Of a DNA stretch of 64,000 nucleotides, positions 45,250 to 59,132 are shown piece after piece. The notes under the pieces were generated by a model, which worked only from the letters and a program-made list of their open reading frames with translations, was not told the DNA's origin and did no database searches. The first letter of the stretch is position 1, and each line of letters opens with the position of its first letter. Origin of the DNA: Marinobacter sp. LV10R510-11A (GTDB lineage: Bacteria; Pseudomonadota; Gammaproteobacteria; Pseudomonadales; Oleiphilaceae); NCBI RefSeq assembly GCF_900215155.1, contig NZ_LT907980.1, positions 2,914,001 to 2,978,000 of the forward strand, written 5' to 3'. Made by a program: the position numbers and the translations under genes.

Positions 45250-46032
45250 TCAGAATGCCGGAACAACAGCACCTTTATAGTTTTCCTTGATGAACTCGCG
45301 AACTTCGTCAGATTTCAACGCTTTCGCCAGCTTTTGCATAGCTTCGCTGTCTTTGTTATCAGGGCGCGCCACTAGAATATTCACGTACGGAGAGTCGGAG
45401 CCTTCGATGATCAGAGCATCTTCCGTCGGGTTCAGGCCTGCTTCCAACGCGTAGTTGGTGTTGATCAGCGCTACATCCACCTGATCAAGAATCCGGGGCA
45501 GTGTTGCCGCCTCCAGCTCTTTGAAGTCGAGATCTTTGGGGTTGTCAGCAATGTCGCGCGGGGTTGCGGTGATCTTGCTGCCTTCCTTCAACATGATCAG
45601 CCCGGCTTTTTGCAGGAGCAACAAGGCCCGGCCACCGTTGGTGGGGTCGTTTGGAATAGCGACAACGTCGCCCTTTTTCAGATCATCCAGAGAGTCGATC
45701 TTGTTGGAATAGGCGCCAAATGGCTCAACGTGAATGCCGGCAACGGTGACTAGGCTGGTGCCACGGCCGTCATTGAACTCGTCCAGGTACGGCTGGTGCT
45801 GGAAGAAGTTGGCGTCCATACGTTTCTGGTCGACTTGAACGTTCGGCTGGATATAGTCGGTAAACACCTTCACATCCAACTCCACGCCCTGTTCAGCCAG
45901 CTTCGGCTTCACAAATTCCAGCAGCTCGGCATGGGGTACAGGCGTTGCGGCTACAGACAGCTTTTCGGCGGATACCGCAGCAGAAAAAAAGGATGCGGCA
46001 GCTAGGGCTACCAAGGCTGTTTTAAACTTCAT
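45250..46032 (-). CDS. metQ: MetQ/NlpA-family substrate-binding protein
   Basis: Binds methionine for the MetNIQ importer. The signal peptide (MKFKTALVALAAASFFSAAVSA) lacks a lipobox Cys, so this copy is periplasmic or uncleaved rather than lipid anchored. The mature part has the family blocks PHAELLEFVKPKL, DANFFQHQPYLDEF and IPNDPTNGGRALLLLQKAGLI. 260 residues. Confidence 0.92.
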   Translation of the reverse strand: MKFKTALVALAAASFFSAAVSAEKLSVAATPVPHAELLEFVKPKLAEQGVELDVKVFTDYIQPNVQVDQKRMDANFFQHQPYLDEFNDGRGTSLVTVAGIHVEPFGAYSNKIDSLDDLKKGDVVAIPNDPTNGGRALLLLQKAGLIMLKEGSKITATPRDIADNPKDLDFKELEAATLPRILDQVDVALINTNYALEAGLNPTEDALIIEGSDSPYVNILVARPDNKDSEAMQKLAKALKSDEVREFIKENYKGAVVPAF

Positions 46033-46073
46033 AAATGTACTCTCCTGTTAACTGATATTTACTTTGGATCAAA

Positions 46074-46739
46074 TTACTTCCGGCTGAAATGCAGAACCAA
46101 TCGATCACCAATCATCTGCAGCACCTGCACGAAAATCACCAGCAAGGCCACGGTAATCACCATTACATCGGTCTGAAAACGCTGGTAACCAAAACGAATC
46201 GCCAAGTCACCTAAGCCGCCACCACCGATAACGCCAGACATGGCGGCATAAGACACCAGCGTAATCGCGGTTACCGTAATACCCGCGATAATGCCCGGAA
46301 GCGCTTCTGGCAGCAAGGCACCGAAAACGATCTGCCGCACGCTGGCTCCCATGGCTTGCGTTGCTTCGATGATACCCCGGTCGACCTCCCGCAGGGATGT
46401 TTCCACCAGCCGGGCAAAGAACGGCGCACCGCCTGCAACCAGCGGCGGGATAGCACCCGCCACGCCGAGAGACGTACCAATAAGCATCACGGTAAACGGT
46501 ATCATCACAATCAGCAGGATAATAAACGGCACGGAGCGTAATACGTTCACCACAAACGACAGCACTGCATAGGCGACCGGCTGCTCCAGCAGCTGGCGTT
46601 TACCCGTCAAAAACAGCAACACGCCTATCGGCAGGCCAGCCAGCACACTGAACAGCAGCGACATGCCGACCATTATCAGGGTATCCCAGCTCGCTATGCC
46701 AATCTCTGGCCAGTCCACATTACTCAGTAAGGCTTCCAT
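46074..46739 (-). CDS. metI: methionine ABC transporter permease
   Basis: A 221-residue permease with about five helices. The EAA-like loop is IIEATQAMGASVRQIVFGALLPEALPGIIAG, and NVLRSVPFIILLIVMIPF is typical of MetI. Its ATG shares an A with the metN stop. Confidence 0.93.
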   Translation of the reverse strand: MEALLSNVDWPEIGIASWDTLIMVGMSLLFSVLAGLPIGVLLFLTGKRQLLEQPVAYAVLSFVVNVLRSVPFIILLIVMIPFTVMLIGTSLGVAGAIPPLVAGGAPFFARLVETSLREVDRGIIEATQAMGASVRQIVFGALLPEALPGIIAGITVTAITLVSYAAMSGVIGGGGLGDLAIRFGYQRFQTDVMVITVALLVIFVQVLQMIGDRLVLHFSRK

Positions 46740-54130: not shown

Positions 54131-54537
54131 CCGAACTGATCCCACCGCCCTCCACCTCCGACAAGTCTTTGATGGAGCGAGTAGAAGATGCACTCCTGCC
54201 ACTCATCAATCTGGTTTTCTTGCTCCTGATGTTTTTCATCGTGGCTGGCCAGCTTGCTGACGACCCCTTGCCCGACCTGCCGGCTACGCCTCCGAGTGCC
54301 GAGCAACAGTCGCCCCATGCCGATCTGTTAGTCAACGCTAGGGGCCATTGGCGAATAAGCGGCGAAACGCTGGATGCACAAACCCTGCTTCAGCGGCTGC
54401 CCGAACCAGATGCACAGAACCCACTAAGAATTGCCGCCGCCAGCAGCATTTCCATGGCCGACCTAGAAAGTCTTTTACGCACATTGGAAAAGGGCGGTTA
54501 CGAGGAAATACTACTGCTTACGGAGCCTGACACGTGA
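54127..54537 (+). CDS. second ExbD-like subunit lacking the conserved Asp
   Basis: A 136-residue protein with the same layout as ExbD. The membrane helix reads LLPLINLVFLLLMFFIVAG, with Asn28 in the place of the Asp. The ATG at 54127 overlaps the exbD stop (ATGA); its own stop overlaps the tonB start. It may have a structural role in the ExbBD complex or help TonB. Confidence 0.85.
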   Translation: MTELIPPPSTSDKSLMERVEDALLPLINLVFLLLMFFIVAGQLADDPLPDLPATPPSAEQQSPHADLLVNARGHWRISGETLDAQTLLQRLPEPDAQNPLRIAAASSISMADLESLLRTLEKGGYEEILLLTEPDT

Positions 54538-55226
54538 AGGATACCGGAAGGCTTGCCCGTCTCGGACTACTGGTAATTGCCGTTGTATTGAGCGCGGGAA
54601 TTCTCATGGCTGCCACGCCAGAGAAACCCATCGAGATCAACCAGCTAGGCAACGCCGCCGTCAATACAGCACCGGCTATCAAAATCTCGCTTGCGGGCAA
54701 GGCAGCGCCCGCGCCTGCAGAGAAGGCAAAGCCCGAACCTGTGCAGAAAGCCAAACCAAAGCCCGAGCCAGAGCCAGAAACGGTAGCGGAACCTGAGACG
54801 ACCGAAGCAACACCCGAAGAACGAACGGATAATTCTCAACCAGAGGCTTCCGCCAGCGAGACGCCAGAGCCGGCGCCAGAAAACGGGGATTCCCAGTCGC
54901 AATCTTCAGTGCCATTGCAAAATGCTGGCAACCCCTCAGCGGTTGATGAGTACCTGGCAAAACTCAGCAGGCACCTTTCCCGGTTTTATAAATACCCCCG
55001 CCGTGCCCGCAGGCTGGGGCAGGAAGGTGCGCCGGTTATAACCTTCAAATTCCGCCGAGACGGCTCACTTATCGGCCACAGCCTGCGCACAAAATCCGGC
55101 CACTCCCTGCTGGATAAAGCGGCTCTTTCCATGCTTGAACAAGCTGCACCTCTACCTCCTGTACCGGATGATATGTCCGGCAGCACTTTCAGCTACGCAC
55201 TGCCCGTCAGATTCAGCTTGCGCTGA
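54534..55226 (+). CDS. tonB: TonB energy transducer
   Basis: A 230-residue protein. An N-terminal anchor (LGLLVIAVVLSAGILM, about 8-23) is followed by a Pro/Glu/Lys-rich rod (about 60-125) and a C-terminal domain (YLAKLSRHLSRFYKYPRRARRLGQEG, GSLIGHSLRTKSGHSLLDKAALSML). It starts with GTG at 54534, overlapping the previous stop. It powers TonB-dependent receptors, such as the BtuB in this window or siderophore receptors; the Fur box favours iron. Confidence 0.92.
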   Translation: MKDTGRLARLGLLVIAVVLSAGILMAATPEKPIEINQLGNAAVNTAPAIKISLAGKAAPAPAEKAKPEPVQKAKPKPEPEPETVAEPETTEATPEERTDNSQPEASASETPEPAPENGDSQSQSSVPLQNAGNPSAVDEYLAKLSRHLSRFYKYPRRARRLGQEGAPVITFKFRRDGSLIGHSLRTKSGHSLLDKAALSMLEQAAPLPPVPDDMSGSTFSYALPVRFSLR

Positions 55227-55284
55227 CATAGAGGGCGAAAACATAAGCGATAAGGCTCGCATGATGTTGCCTTTCGAAATAGAA

Positions 55285-56190
55285 CTATTCATCAACCTGC
55301 CGAATCCATGGCCCGGGTGGGTACCATATTTTCTGCTCGGTCTCGGCAGACTTGTTCTCCATCACAGGAGCAAGGAATGTAACCACCGCAGCAACAATCG
55401 CCGAGAACGCCTGCGGCACATGCGGCTGGCCAAGACGCTTATGAAAGGCTTGCCATTGTGGCTGCTTGCTGTCCGTAAAAGCAGTAGAAAAGGGGCTAAT
55501 TTGAGGGAGCTCGGTGCCCCGATTCTGAAAGGTTTGCCCCACGGCCCCAAACAGATCAAGCAACGTGAATACATGCTGGCGCGACAACAGCCAGATATCG
55601 TAAAAGTCTTTCATGCGGCTGTTCAGTTCGCCAAGATTAACCATCGCCTGAAACTTCTCGGCAATCGAAGATTCCGGGGTGTAGCACTGGATTCTGGCAG
55701 AGGGAAAATCCAGTAACGCTGGAAAGTCTTGCCAGGAGGGTAATGGAAAGACCGTGTCGCCAAAGCCGATATCCAGCTGCATGGGAACTCGCGCCTTATC
55801 AAGTGTTCCAGTGAACGTCACCCTCAACCCTTGATAATCGGCATCTGCAGTAATCAACTCAGCTTTCAGCGTATTCGGATCAAAGCTCAGGCCATCATCA
55901 ACGACTTTGGTAGCAATCACCTCACGGACTTGAGCCAAAATAGCCCTAGGCTCATTACTGGTCTGGCCCAACATATCAATGTCTCGGGTGGGACGGCTAT
56001 TTGGCCCCTGTATAACCCAAAGCATCAGCGCTCCCTTGAGCGTAAAGCAACGGTTATGGGTTGACTGGCTCAGTCGGTATAAAAACCGCTCCATGGCAAA
56101 GTATTGAAGCAATTCCTGAAAGGGACGCTTTTCCTCTTGGGATTTATTCAGCAGTTTCTGTCGCACAGAGGCGGCGATATTCTTGGCCAC
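55285..56190 (-). CDS. AbiEii-type nucleotidyltransferase toxin
   Basis: Toxin of a type IV toxin-antitoxin/abortive infection pair. The 301 residues start MAKNIAASVRQKLLN and contain FTLKGALML, RPTRDIDMLG (the nucleotidyltransferase motif with the Asp pair, about 66-75) and PVQLDIGFGD-like MQLDIGFGDTV; IAEKFQAMVNLGELNSRMKDFYDIW is the typical late block. Located 32 nt after the antitoxin gene. All key residues look intact. Confidence 0.92.
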   Translation of the reverse strand: MAKNIAASVRQKLLNKSQEEKRPFQELLQYFAMERFLYRLSQSTHNRCFTLKGALMLWVIQGPNSRPTRDIDMLGQTSNEPRAILAQVREVIATKVVDDGLSFDPNTLKAELITADADYQGLRVTFTGTLDKARVPMQLDIGFGDTVFPLPSWQDFPALLDFPSARIQCYTPESSIAEKFQAMVNLGELNSRMKDFYDIWLLSRQHVFTLLDLFGAVGQTFQNRGTELPQISPFSTAFTDSKQPQWQAFHKRLGQPHVPQAFSAIVAAVVTFLAPVMENKSAETEQKIWYPPGPWIRQVDE

Positions 56191-56222
56191 GGTGATCTCC
56201 TTTCACGTTAGGCTAATTCCGT

Positions 56223-56864
56223 TTACAGTTTGGCTTCCACATACGGGGCCATCACATTGGCGACTCTGCAGATTCGGGCGTATTCCATCAGCTTGCCTGG
56301 CCTAAAAATTTTGCGGGTACGATATAGCTCGAGAGCTTCCAGCACTACATCCATTCCAATGTGATTACGGAACTTGAAGCAGTCCGCCAGAGTTTTCTCC
56401 GGACTGTAAACCTGCAAAGTGATGCCATCGACCTCCGCCTGCTCAATACCTTCACGGAAGGCCTGACCCGAAAACCGGTAGCCGGCCACTGGAGGATAAT
56501 CAAGAACCGGCAAACGGGCACCCCGCTCTACCGCGAGGTGAACCTCATGGGGAATTTGTGTGGTGATGCCATGCCAGTCCAATGCGGATATCAGGCACAG
56601 CACCGCATGGGGAAAACGAGTGGCGACTGTCACCAGATCCGGATTCTGTATCAGGGGTAGATCTGCCAGCCGGTAGAGTCCACGACTAACCTGCTTAATC
56701 TGCCCCTCATCCCGAAGCTGGTAGAACTGGTAACGGCTAACACCCTGCGCCAGCGCCTCGCTCATACGGAGTTGGCCGCCGTGCTGTCGGAACAAAACTT
56801 GGAGCTGTGCCCGGAAGTTATGGGCGAAGCCTGAGTCAGACAAACTGTCACCACTTATCAACAT
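56223..56864 (-). CDS. AbiEi-type antitoxin / transcriptional regulator
   Basis: A 213-residue protein with an N-terminal winged helix (LFRQHGGQLRMSEALAQG, YQLRDEGQIKQVSRGLYRL) and a C-terminal AbiEi domain (FPHAVLCLISALDWHGI, VYSPEKTLADCFKF). In known systems AbiEi binds inverted repeats in its own promoter and represses the operon. The ATG at 56864 lies in the spacer of the operator palindrome, with no ribosome site, so translation may be leaderless or begin at another codon nearby. Confidence 0.9.
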   Translation of the reverse strand: MLISGDSLSDSGFAHNFRAQLQVLFRQHGGQLRMSEALAQGVSRYQFYQLRDEGQIKQVSRGLYRLADLPLIQNPDLVTVATRFPHAVLCLISALDWHGITTQIPHEVHLAVERGARLPVLDYPPVAGYRFSGQAFREGIEQAEVDGITLQVYSPEKTLADCFKFRNHIGMDVVLEALELYRTRKIFRPGKLMEYARICRVANVMAPYVEAKL

Positions 56865-56882
56865 GTGGTGACAGTTTGTCTG
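56837..56882. promoter_or_regulatory. palindromic operator of the AbiE operon
   Basis: CAGACAAACTGTCACCAC (56837-56854) and its exact complement (56865-56882) form 18-bp perfect arms with a 10-nt spacer, TTATCAACAT. It covers the start of the antitoxin gene. AbiEi-type regulators are known to bind inverted repeats there, so this is the likely binding site. Confidence 0.85.
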
Positions 56883-57046
56883 GTTATGGAGAGCAATTCA
56901 AGCGATTGCGCTGACATCCACTGCCCGGGCAAATTTTCGCTCGGCCAGCAATTCCTCGCTCAAAACCCGGGCACAAGCTTGCCCGCCGCGGCCAAACATT
57001 GTCATAAATACTCTTTACTTATTGTTTTATATGATCTTTATGAATC

Positions 57047-57125: not shown

Positions 57126-57644
57126 ATGCCAACTCCTTGTTATATCTCTATCGAAGGCAAGACCCAGGGTAACATCACCGCTGGTGCATTCACTTCCGAT
57201 TCCGTAGGCAACATCTACGTTGAAGGCCACGAAGACGAAGTGCTGGTTCAAGAATTCAGCCACGTTGTCACCGTACCTACAGATCCCCAGTCCGGTCAGC
57301 CTTCCGGTCAGCGTGTACACAAGCCGTTCAAATTCACATCGGCACTGAACAAATCCACACCGCTGATGTACAACTCTCTGGCTTCGGGCGAAATGCTGCC
57401 AAAGGTTGAGCTGAAGTGGTACCGCACTTCTGTAGAAGGTAAGCAGGAGCATTTCTTCTCTACCATCCTAGAAGATGCCACCATCATCGACATCAGCTGC
57501 AACATGCCACACTGCCAAGACACCGCCAGTGCTGACTTCACGCAGCTGGTTACCGTTTCCGTGTCCTATCGCAAAGTAACCTGGGAACACACTGTTGCCG
57601 GTACTTCCGGTGCAGACGACTGGCGTTCGCCAATCGAGGCGTAA
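57126..57644 (+). CDS. hcp: Hcp, type VI secretion tube protein (orphan)
   Basis: A 172-residue Hcp that forms hexameric tube rings. The start MPTPCYISIEGKTQGNIT is standard, and RVHKPFKFTSALNKSTPLMYNSLASGEMLPKVELKWYR and the late VSVSYRKVTWEHTVAGTSGADDW blocks are family typical. A GGAG site lies before the ATG; the upstream open frame is not real coding. No other T6SS gene is in the window, so this is an orphan copy. Confidence 0.95.
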   Translation: MPTPCYISIEGKTQGNITAGAFTSDSVGNIYVEGHEDEVLVQEFSHVVTVPTDPQSGQPSGQRVHKPFKFTSALNKSTPLMYNSLASGEMLPKVELKWYRTSVEGKQEHFFSTILEDATIIDISCNMPHCQDTASADFTQLVTVSVSYRKVTWEHTVAGTSGADDWRSPIEA

Positions 57645-57851: not shown

Positions 57852-58289
57852 ATGAAGCTCATTGCAACCGTCATACTCATTTTGATTCTCTCCGGCTGTG
57901 CATCGACCCAGCCAATATCGTTTTCACCCAGTCAAGATTACGCGGTGTCGGTTCAATCATCTTTATTTGATGCTGTGCGTATCGACGAGAACGACACATC
58001 CCTCTTTCGCAACGGAAAAGCCATCGGATTCATTAGGGTTGAACCCGTACCCGAAAATGTTGCTTCAACATCCGACTTTCTGAGCAAACTCAGATCCGAC
58101 TCTGAATCAGAGACCGTTGAAACAAAATCGCTGAGCTTTTCATCAGGGTTCAGAGGATTTTCAGCAAAGTATCGTAACTACGTGACCGGCTATCTATTCA
58201 GTGAGGAGAACCCTGACTCAATCCTTATTTTCAGCTTTCCGGAAGATGATTTTGATAAAATTGCTGGGACGGTCTCGTCCGGCATTTAA
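57852..58289 (+). CDS. small lipoprotein of unknown function
   Basis: A 145-residue lipoprotein with lipobox LILSGC (Cys at 16). The mature part is Ser-rich (FLSKLRSDSESETVE) and has alternating hydrophobic strands, for example AVSVQSSLFDAV. The base composition is more AT-rich than the neighbours. The family is not recognised. It lies 200 nt after the hcp terminator, so it has its own promoter. Confidence 0.65.
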   Translation: MKLIATVILILILSGCASTQPISFSPSQDYAVSVQSSLFDAVRIDENDTSLFRNGKAIGFIRVEPVPENVASTSDFLSKLRSDSESETVETKSLSFSSGFRGFSAKYRNYVTGYLFSEENPDSILIFSFPEDDFDKIAGTVSSGI

Positions 58290-58300
58290 TGGCCTAAATT

Positions 58301-58346
58301 CAGACATACTGTCACCATTTATTCTCATCTGGCGACGTTTTGTCTG
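58301..58346. promoter_or_regulatory. second AbiE-operator-like inverted repeat
   Basis: CAGACATACTGTCACCA (58301-58317), a 12-nt spacer and TGGCGACGTTTTGTCTG (58330-58346). The left arm matches the AbiE operator arm at 16 of 17 positions and the right at 14 of 17, with the same 17-12-17 geometry, and the flanking ACTCA is shared too. It lies 24 nt before the TTG start of the metalloprotease gene. Confidence 0.75.
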
Positions 58347-58370
58347 ACTCAATACCAAGAATCAAGTAAG

Positions 58371-59132
58371 TTGGTCGCTAAACTTGTCGAACTCTACTTC
58401 TCAGATTATGAGGTTTGCAGCTCGTTAATTGCTATGAATGACCCTAAATATCAAGCCCGTAGGCTCGGCGAACTGATGTGCGAAGTTACGCAAAGCACTC
58501 TCTGGCAACCGGCAGCCGCCTGGGTCAAAAACCGCGTTCCCAGCAGCACCCTGGTATGCCGAGTCGGTTCTGGTCAGGCCACCTATCATCGCTTTGATCC
58601 GCAGTACAAACAGCATCAGATTACCTATGGCCTTCGTATGATTCAGGCCAAACACCAGCCAAATACGGCCAGTGGCTGGCTCTCCAGCCGGGAGATCCTG
58701 AAGCGGGGTTATTTCGACGGTGAGCTGAGCACACTAAACTTATTGGCGCACACCTGCTGCCACGAGTTCGCGCATCTGCTGCAACACAGTGCTGGGCAAC
58801 GATTTCGTGGCTCGGTTCACAACCGACATTTCTACACGATTCTTGATGAACTGCATGAAAATGGCGGAGCAAACGCCGTGCGAGAAGAGCTGGCAGAACG
58901 TGCGGGGCAAATCGGAATGCCATTGCCTGAGCAGACCTTTGAGTTACCGAACCCAAGCCAACAGCGGGCAGGCTGGAATGTGGGTGAAGCAGTGTGTTTT
59001 GATCACGGCCTGCGGGATTTTCAGGGCGAGATTGTAAGAGTCAATCGCAAGACCTGCACCGTGCATGGCACAGGTAAATCCCGGGGCACACGTTACCGAG
59101 TGCCAATGCAAATGCTGCGGCGCGCAACGTGA
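58371..59132 (+). CDS. SprT-like zinc metalloprotease
   Basis: A protein of up to 253 residues with the zinc site TCCHEFAHLLQH (HExxH at about 131-135), followed by RGSVHNRHFYTIL, which fits the third zinc ligand of SprT-like enzymes. The C-terminal part (about 195-250) is a small beta domain (GEAVCFDHGLRDFQGEIVRVNRKTCTV). The start is uncertain: TTG at 58371 or ATG at 58434. SprT-type enzymes act in DNA-protein crosslink repair in eukaryotes; the bacterial role is open. The nearby AbiE-like operator suggests shared control. Confidence 0.75.
   Translation: MVAKLVELYFSDYEVCSSLIAMNDPKYQARRLGELMCEVTQSTLWQPAAAWVKNRVPSSTLVCRVGSGQATYHRFDPQYKQHQITYGLRMIQAKHQPNTASGWLSSREILKRGYFDGELSTLNLLAHTCCHEFAHLLQHSAGQRFRGSVHNRHFYTILDELHENGGANAVREELAERAGQIGMPLPEQTFELPNPSQQRAGWNVGEAVCFDHGLRDFQGEIVRVNRKTCTVHGTGKSRGTRYRVPMQMLRRAT

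Follow-up and report, generated by a model that had tools for sequence, protein, structure and literature searches.

The window, a 64,000-nucleotide stretch of the Marinobacter sp. LV10R510-11A genome, contains a variable locus bordered on one side by a tonB-like gene (54534-55226, plus strand; an ORF named after its sequence and found on the same side in many relatives) and on the other by a SprT-like protease gene. The AbiE operon at this locus consists of abiEii, encoding the nucleotidyltransferase toxin (55285-56190, minus strand; Pfam AbiEii, 150.2 bits against a cut-off of 22.5), and abiEi, encoding the antitoxin/repressor (56223-56843, minus strand; Pfam AbiEi_4, 42.9 bits against a cut-off of 25). 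AbiEi, a wHTH protein, and AbiEii are encoded side by side on one strand, 32 nt apart (55285-56864), in the arrangement of an AbiE type IV toxin-antitoxin system. The ORF list starts abiEi at ATG 56864, and comparison with relatives suggests TTG 56843 as the likely start, which lies inside the AbiE operator (56836-56882, unstranded). This operator is a perfect 18-10-18 palindrome (56837-56882) overlapping the likely start codon, and it supplies the inverted repeats of an AbiE operon promoter, the promoter itself not being found by consensus. Elsewhere in the same genome, further AbiEi_4-like places are present at 1738789-1738905 and 2735612-2735680 (G000:C1), one of them below the cut-off, and further AbiEii-like places at 46008-46697 and 99055-99828 (G000:C1).

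The operon is followed on the plus strand by hcp (57126-57644), encoding a T6SS tube protein identified by Pfam and NCBIfam, and by a small lipoprotein-like gene (57852-58289) with no Pfam family at E<=0.001. The SprT-like HExxH metalloprotease gene (58434-59132, plus strand) is started at TTG 58371 in the ORF list, and its likely start is ATG 58434. It is a core gene of the genus, present in 118 of 124 genomes. The protein carries the HExxH zinc motif in the form CCHEFAH, with H110, E111 and H114 invariant in 21 sequences including that of the window, and scores 15.4 bits against Pfam SprT-like (PF10263), below the cut-off of 25.6. A Foldseek fold search gave no match at E<=0.001, and a second look listed two entries, 6mdw and 6mdx, both from one study of a DPC-repair protease.

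A second copy of the operator

The longest direct repeat of the region pairs 56836-56882 with 58300-58346 (47 nt, 81% identity, 1464 nt from start to start). The second site (unstranded), identified by this repeat match, by its matrix score and by six relatives, lies upstream of the SprT-like gene, between the stop of the lipoprotein-like gene (58289, 10 nt away) and the likely ATG 58434, 87 nt from the palindrome. The first-pass annotation, which had proposed that the AbiE operator is duplicated 1.4 kb away in front of an HExxH protease gene, is borne out in this respect, as are the arm matches that it gave: direct comparison of the 17-base arms of the two sites finds 16 of 17 and 14 of 17 positions alike. 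When the whole single-contig genome of 4.44 Mb is queried with the AbiE site, these two places are the only ones at E<=0.001. The second site also has the operator pattern, a pair of inverted CAGACAAnYYGTCACC half-sites separated by 14 nt. It is an orphan: hcp and the lipoprotein-like gene separate it from the nearest abiEi, at a distance of 1.4 kb, and in 13 relatives a full-length abiEi occupies the corresponding place.

A half-site matrix derived from the AbiE operators of 20 relatives gives 58300-58346 a score of 43.4; the top of 243 mononucleotide shuffles of SprT upstream regions is -11.0, and 80 of the 81 real SprT upstream regions classed as lacking the palindrome score below that value. 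Counting against a fully typical operator, the score is lower than those of all 20 reference operators (lowest 49.3), one arm change falls at a position invariant in 42 reference half-sites, and two further arm changes introduce a letter that occurs in only one of the 42.

The orientation of the copy is likely, though not certainly, forward. Its loop fits that orientation better (0.79 against 0.48, in comparison with the references; the first site was compared by eye), and the 20 nt of its right flank resemble the hsdS side of the references (0.40) more than the AbiEi side (0.30), the AbiEi side being the better match over 8-16 nt. The arms slightly favour inversion, the left arm resembling the reference right arm (0.94 against 0.90) and the right arm the reference left (0.86 against 0.81). 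Inversion was also suggested by the flank ACTCA, said in the earlier annotation to be the same at both sites. The pentamer does occur at both, but at opposite ends (TGAGT at 56832-56836, left of the first site; ACTCA at 58347-58351, right of the second), and it is probably a coincidence, because the loops point to a common orientation of the two sites. Given the loop and the 20-nt right flank, an inverted copy was rejected. The right flank, now in the SprT upstream region (58346-58369, unstranded), is a probable relic of the 3' end of hsdS, judged from weak similarity. It contains a TCAAG whose spacing from the palindrome equals that in relatives, and its shortness counts against the explanation preferred below.

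A REP-like mobile palindrome was considered as a source of the copy and rejected, carriers mostly holding one clear copy and the window genome two. Across genomes, most matches to the palindrome pattern with three mismatches look like chance.

Distribution of AbiE and the palindrome

We mapped the proteins of the window and the palindrome (with up to 4 mismatches) on all 119 SprT loci from 118 genomes, some of them cut by contig ends, three at 490-650 nt upstream. The palindrome lies within 0.5 kb upstream of SprT at 31 of the 119 loci, including the window, and about 3.5 kb upstream at seven more. In 17 loci (class A), a whole or broken abiEi lies divergently and directly upstream of SprT with the palindrome between the two genes, and abiEii or a piece of it is present in 15 of these. 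Three further loci retain AbiEi fragments only, ten have the palindrome alone (class B; one, G129, with 4 mismatches), and in seven (class C) abiE lies about 3.5 kb upstream of SprT. At the remaining 81 loci, mapping at up to 4 mismatches finds neither AbiE nor the palindrome. The site is therefore conserved beside SprT-like genes, the property whose absence the first-pass annotation had named as refuting its proposal. Because the classes are scattered on the SprT tree, with at least 30 changes, the place before SprT is, as read from these loci, a hotspot with fast turnover.

The earlier suggestion that AbiEi, AbiEii, Hcp, the lipoprotein and the protease form a five-gene defence module is not supported by this survey. 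SprT is core (118/124), AbiEi, counting fragments, has matches in 28 of 124 genomes, and Hcp is a resident of the locus independent of AbiE, since it is common (55/81) at loci without AbiE or palindrome. Of 75 plasmid records with a match, the 20 listed align with the hcp stretch only. Among the proposed partners, only the lipoprotein-like gene tracks the AbiE or palindrome loci, with matches (which include distant paralogues at 19-32% identity) at 27 of the 31 loci with the palindrome near SprT (class A 13/17, AbiEi-fragment loci 3/3, class B 10/10, and the window) against 2 of 81 without it, one of which (G018) retains a piece of hsdR. In class C the gene lies at the hsdR end of the island described below. 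It may belong to that island, or may be linked to either the island or Hcp, and its tracking supports a shared locus, not a joint function. Distant paralogues of this gene, sometimes in tandem, are found in G110, G010, G015 and G137.

Exact or nearly exact palindromes that do not adjoin this AbiEi are also found at other places. Two diverged members of the genus, both without a match to this AbiEi, carry the palindrome at a shared position between MATE-like and histidine-kinase-like genes: G030 (L213:4207-4250) and G069 (L066:1501-1544 and L231:2145-2188, which are one location). In Saccharospirillum salsuginis (L242:6566-6609), an exact palindrome precedes a gene for a WYL-domain regulator, next to a gene resembling a cas3-type HD gene; the names of this gene and of the MATE-like and histidine-kinase-like genes come from the sequence only. 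In Wenzhouxiangella (L243), the palindrome lies between AbiEii and hsdS 3' ends, and its neighbour is a different AbiEi_4-AbiEii pair. These copies may be further scars or further targets.

Probable origin from a type I restriction island

In the class C loci, the gene order is hsdR-abiEii-abiEi-palindrome-hsdS-hsdM, followed directly by SprT, and the 3.5-kb gap corresponds to hsdS and hsdM. These seven relatives have matches to hsdM, hsdS and hsdR (the HsdR query comprised only the first 451 residues and was named from sequence alone), the set of genes of a type I restriction-modification system; the island of G135 is recognized by Pfam (HsdM_N, N6_Mtase, Methylase_S, AbiEii and AbiEi_4), and that of G127 has no abiEii match. 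Beyond hsdR, hcp and the lipoprotein-like gene are found in five of the seven loci (in G104 and G127 the lipoprotein match is a distant one); G009 has hcp but lacks the lipoprotein-like gene, and G086 has neither within the stretch covered.

Partial islands are found in class A, where pieces of hsdR, hsdS or hsdM remain in 7 of 17 loci (G022, G130, G090, G139, G110, G014 and G083), compared with one (G018) of the 81 loci without the palindrome. A full-length AbiEi is retained by 13 of the 17 class A loci, and a full-length or nearly full-length AbiEii by six. Seven loci have a whole antitoxin and a toxin that is not whole (G067 by an internal gap only), and none shows the reverse; this fits the order expected if the toxin cannot outlive the antitoxin. 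The operator appears in this series as the last element left in island decay. Given the seven class C islands before SprT and the decay stages down to the palindrome alone, 58300-58346 is most likely an island leftover. The reading of the site as the scar of a second AbiE locus, offered in the earlier annotation as its alternative, is thereby well supported, AbiE or the whole hsd-AbiE island lying directly upstream of SprT in relatives, followed further out by hcp and in many cases by the lipoprotein-like gene.

The AbiE operon of the window is also flanked by island ends. A remnant of the hsdR 5' end lies behind abiEii (55263-55284, minus strand), where blastn alignments to five of the seven islands run to 55271-55263, and a remnant of the hsdS 3' end lies before abiEi (56883-56904, minus strand), where alignments to five of the seven start at 56904-56881, furthest in G009. 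Apart from these stubs, the window has no hsdM, hsdS and hsdR. Because the homology to these islands spans the hsdS end to the hsdR start, the AbiE operon is, on this comparison, a second island remnant, between tonB and hcp.

Two palindromes of other loci show arm or loop rearrangements. At L186 (G015), where the palindrome is some 141 nt ahead of the SprT reference point, comparison by eye shows a loop oriented opposite to that of the other loci and a right flank that remains similar to the hsdS stub, as though the segment between the arms had been turned round. In L138 (G112), which holds an AbiEi fragment only, the palindrome about 103 nt upstream of the reference point has the same A-to-T change in both arms, suggesting arm-to-arm conversion.

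Conservation of the orphan block

Seven loci (window, G129, G107, G098, G137, G143 and G111) share both junctions: the lipoprotein gene stops about 10 nt short of the palindrome, and the right flank is common to all of them. In the other six this AbiEi has no match (genome completeness being only 82% for G111 and 85% for G129), and G107 alone among them has any AbiEi_4 match. Over the 21 pairs, the mean p-distance is 0.07 and 0.11 in the arms, 0.15 in the loop, 0.38 in the left spacer, 0.19 in the first 30 nt of the right flank and 0.27 in its remainder, against 0.45 and 0.47 at fourfold sites of the lipoprotein gene and SprT. Taken over the full 21 pairs and over the 18 that remain when one close trio is set aside, the ranges are 0.07-0.11 for the arms, 0.38-0.43 for the 9-nt left spacer and 0.45-0.52 for fourfold sites of both neighbouring genes. 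Because the arms differ by 7-11% against 45-52% at fourfold sites, the junction is probably old and the block constrained.

The arms are less variable than both spacers (9/32 against 58/96 variable columns, p=0.002), and a comparison with the right flank's first 30 nt shows no significant difference (Fisher p=0.42 for seven loci, 0.094 for five), so the constrained block comprises the palindrome and about 30 nt towards SprT. For this reason promoter function would account for the conservation without a regulator; the block fits promoter DNA, and the SprT promoter may have adopted the palindrome. By eye, the right arm reads TTGTCT in five of the seven loci, and about 16 nt further on the flank reads TCAAGT (window) or TCTAGT (five of the six relatives), which would be a weak promoter at best. 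A consensus scan for a sigma-70 promoter at the two palindromes (56836-56882 and 58300-58346) found none. Changes in the seven-locus group fall at the tolerated half-site positions 8-9 in three of nine cases (p=0.09), which counts against the explanation preferred below.

Alternative explanations and the proposed history

As an inverted repeat between two co-directional genes, the palindrome could also be a conserved RNA hairpin in the transcript of the lipoprotein gene or SprT, acting as a terminator or on mRNA stability. The variation in its arms makes this highly improbable. In the 20 reference operators and the AbiE site of the window, the half-sites largely retain CAGACAAnYYGTCACC, yet the arm pairs of the references are mismatched at position 9 in 15 of the 20 and at position 8 in seven (counted from 0), the two arms varying independently at these positions (5/20 the same against 4.5 expected). 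Since each half-site keeps its own consensus while the arms mismatch independently, the variation is the mark of a putative protein half-site and not of a stem; no terminator-like site was found, and the hairpin was rejected. AbiEi would be the protein concerned, as its linkage to the palindrome suggests. Were the palindrome instead owned by another regulator, such as a repressor of the WYL/BrxR type, with AbiE, SprT and a few other genes as its targets, copies without a relative of this AbiEi beside them, as at L242 (WYL), L213, L066/L231 and L243, would be accounted for. This is improbable, however: the palindrome is present in each of the 28 genomes where AbiEi has a match, and it lies at the AbiEi start in the 21 loci with a full-length AbiEi; of seven records outside the genus that contain the exact pattern, five carry this AbiEi, whole or in part, next to it (in Vreelandella arcis the pair is accompanied by hsdM and hsdS). 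The WYL candidate, prompted by L242, was not preferred; a relative is present in 124 of 124 genomes and so does not track the palindrome, and 30 loci examined among more matches hold no copy (best score -9.3).

A purely neutral scar, either young or slow to decay and without a role at SprT, is harder to dismiss but still unlikely. Decay products are seen, including a degraded copy in G124, half copies in G008 and G027 (the right half only, by eye) and the weak site of G129 (30.7), and these count against a strict need for the site; the extension of the conservation into the flank also suits a scar. Against it stand the seven same-junction loci, in which about half of the fourfold sites have changed and the arms only 7-11%, and the scores of SprT upstream regions, which are mostly either operator-like or at the level of shuffles, with few between.

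The explanation that we prefer, with a probability of roughly 0.78, is that island loss left an operator copy which has been kept as SprT promoter DNA and is possibly bound by AbiEi. On this reading, 58300-58346 would be a true copy of an AbiEi-type operator. An hsdR-abiEii-abiEi-operator-hsdS-hsdM island between the lipoprotein gene and SprT would have been lost in the lineage of the window, leaving the operator joined to the SprT promoter region, where the conservation suggests that it and about 30 nt have since been kept by selection, most likely as promoter DNA of SprT. The window genome would then carry AbiE again, as the second island remnant between tonB and hcp, and AbiEi from this remnant could bind both operators, repressing SprT as well as its own operon, so that scarcity of AbiEi would release the two together. 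The origin by island loss is well supported by whole islands, partial islands and conserved junctions, and control of the protease by AbiEi in the window genome is plausible. A wider idea, tentative and on balance doubtful, is that the core gene has exapted an antitoxin operator, so that any later acquisition of AbiE, such as that by the strain of the window, automatically places the SprT-like protease under antitoxin control; the protease would then be turned on by phage attack or by loss of the island.

Should the orphan operator be functional, a mobile toxin-antitoxin system could rewire a resident core gene wherever it inserts, and the arrival or loss of AbiE would alter how strongly the protease, a possible actor on DNA-bound proteins, is expressed. 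Defence genes are gained and lost, and this locus shows their leftovers, the genus having side by side the whole island, AbiE only, antitoxin with broken toxin, operator only, and nothing. Even without a regulatory role, the locus would provide a clear decay order for a type IV toxin-antitoxin system.

Comparison with known systems

Among the papers listed on AbiEi operators, AbiE with type I restriction, antitoxin targets, AbiEi in Marinobacter and SprT in defence, we noticed no account of this locus, and none was listed on orphan operators of toxin-antitoxin systems. The probable source of the operator, in relatives, is an island of the type I restriction-modification kind at a fixed chromosomal site (hsdR-abiEii-abiEi-hsdS-hsdM before SprT); unlike such islands, the window retains only small hsdR and hsdS ends around AbiE. 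MqsA of E. coli (PMC4803016) belongs to a type II system, unlike the type IV AbiE, and its other targets, in the part of that account which concerns them, are not presented as relics of a copy of its own locus that has been lost. For Rv1044, an AbiEi-family protein of M. tuberculosis, abiE-repeat-like sequences elsewhere are described and regulation outside the operon is raised by the authors (PMC7319586); that discussion, as far as it goes, gives no defined target gene or conserved site, whereas here the site is conserved beside one gene. A further likeness is to AbiE of Streptococcus agalactiae, described as a bicistronic AbiEi-AbiEii operon with a long inverted repeat at its promoter, where AbiEi binds the repeats and represses (PMC3985639; PMC7319586). 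One of those repeats is reported to carry the -35 element (PMC3985639; PMC7319586), as is supposed here for SprT. The S. agalactiae repeats are given as two of 23 bp, 3 bp apart, at the system's own operon (PMC3985639; PMC7319586), in contrast to the 18-bp arms of the window, which are 10 bp apart, lie over the likely start codon and have a second copy at an unrelated core gene.
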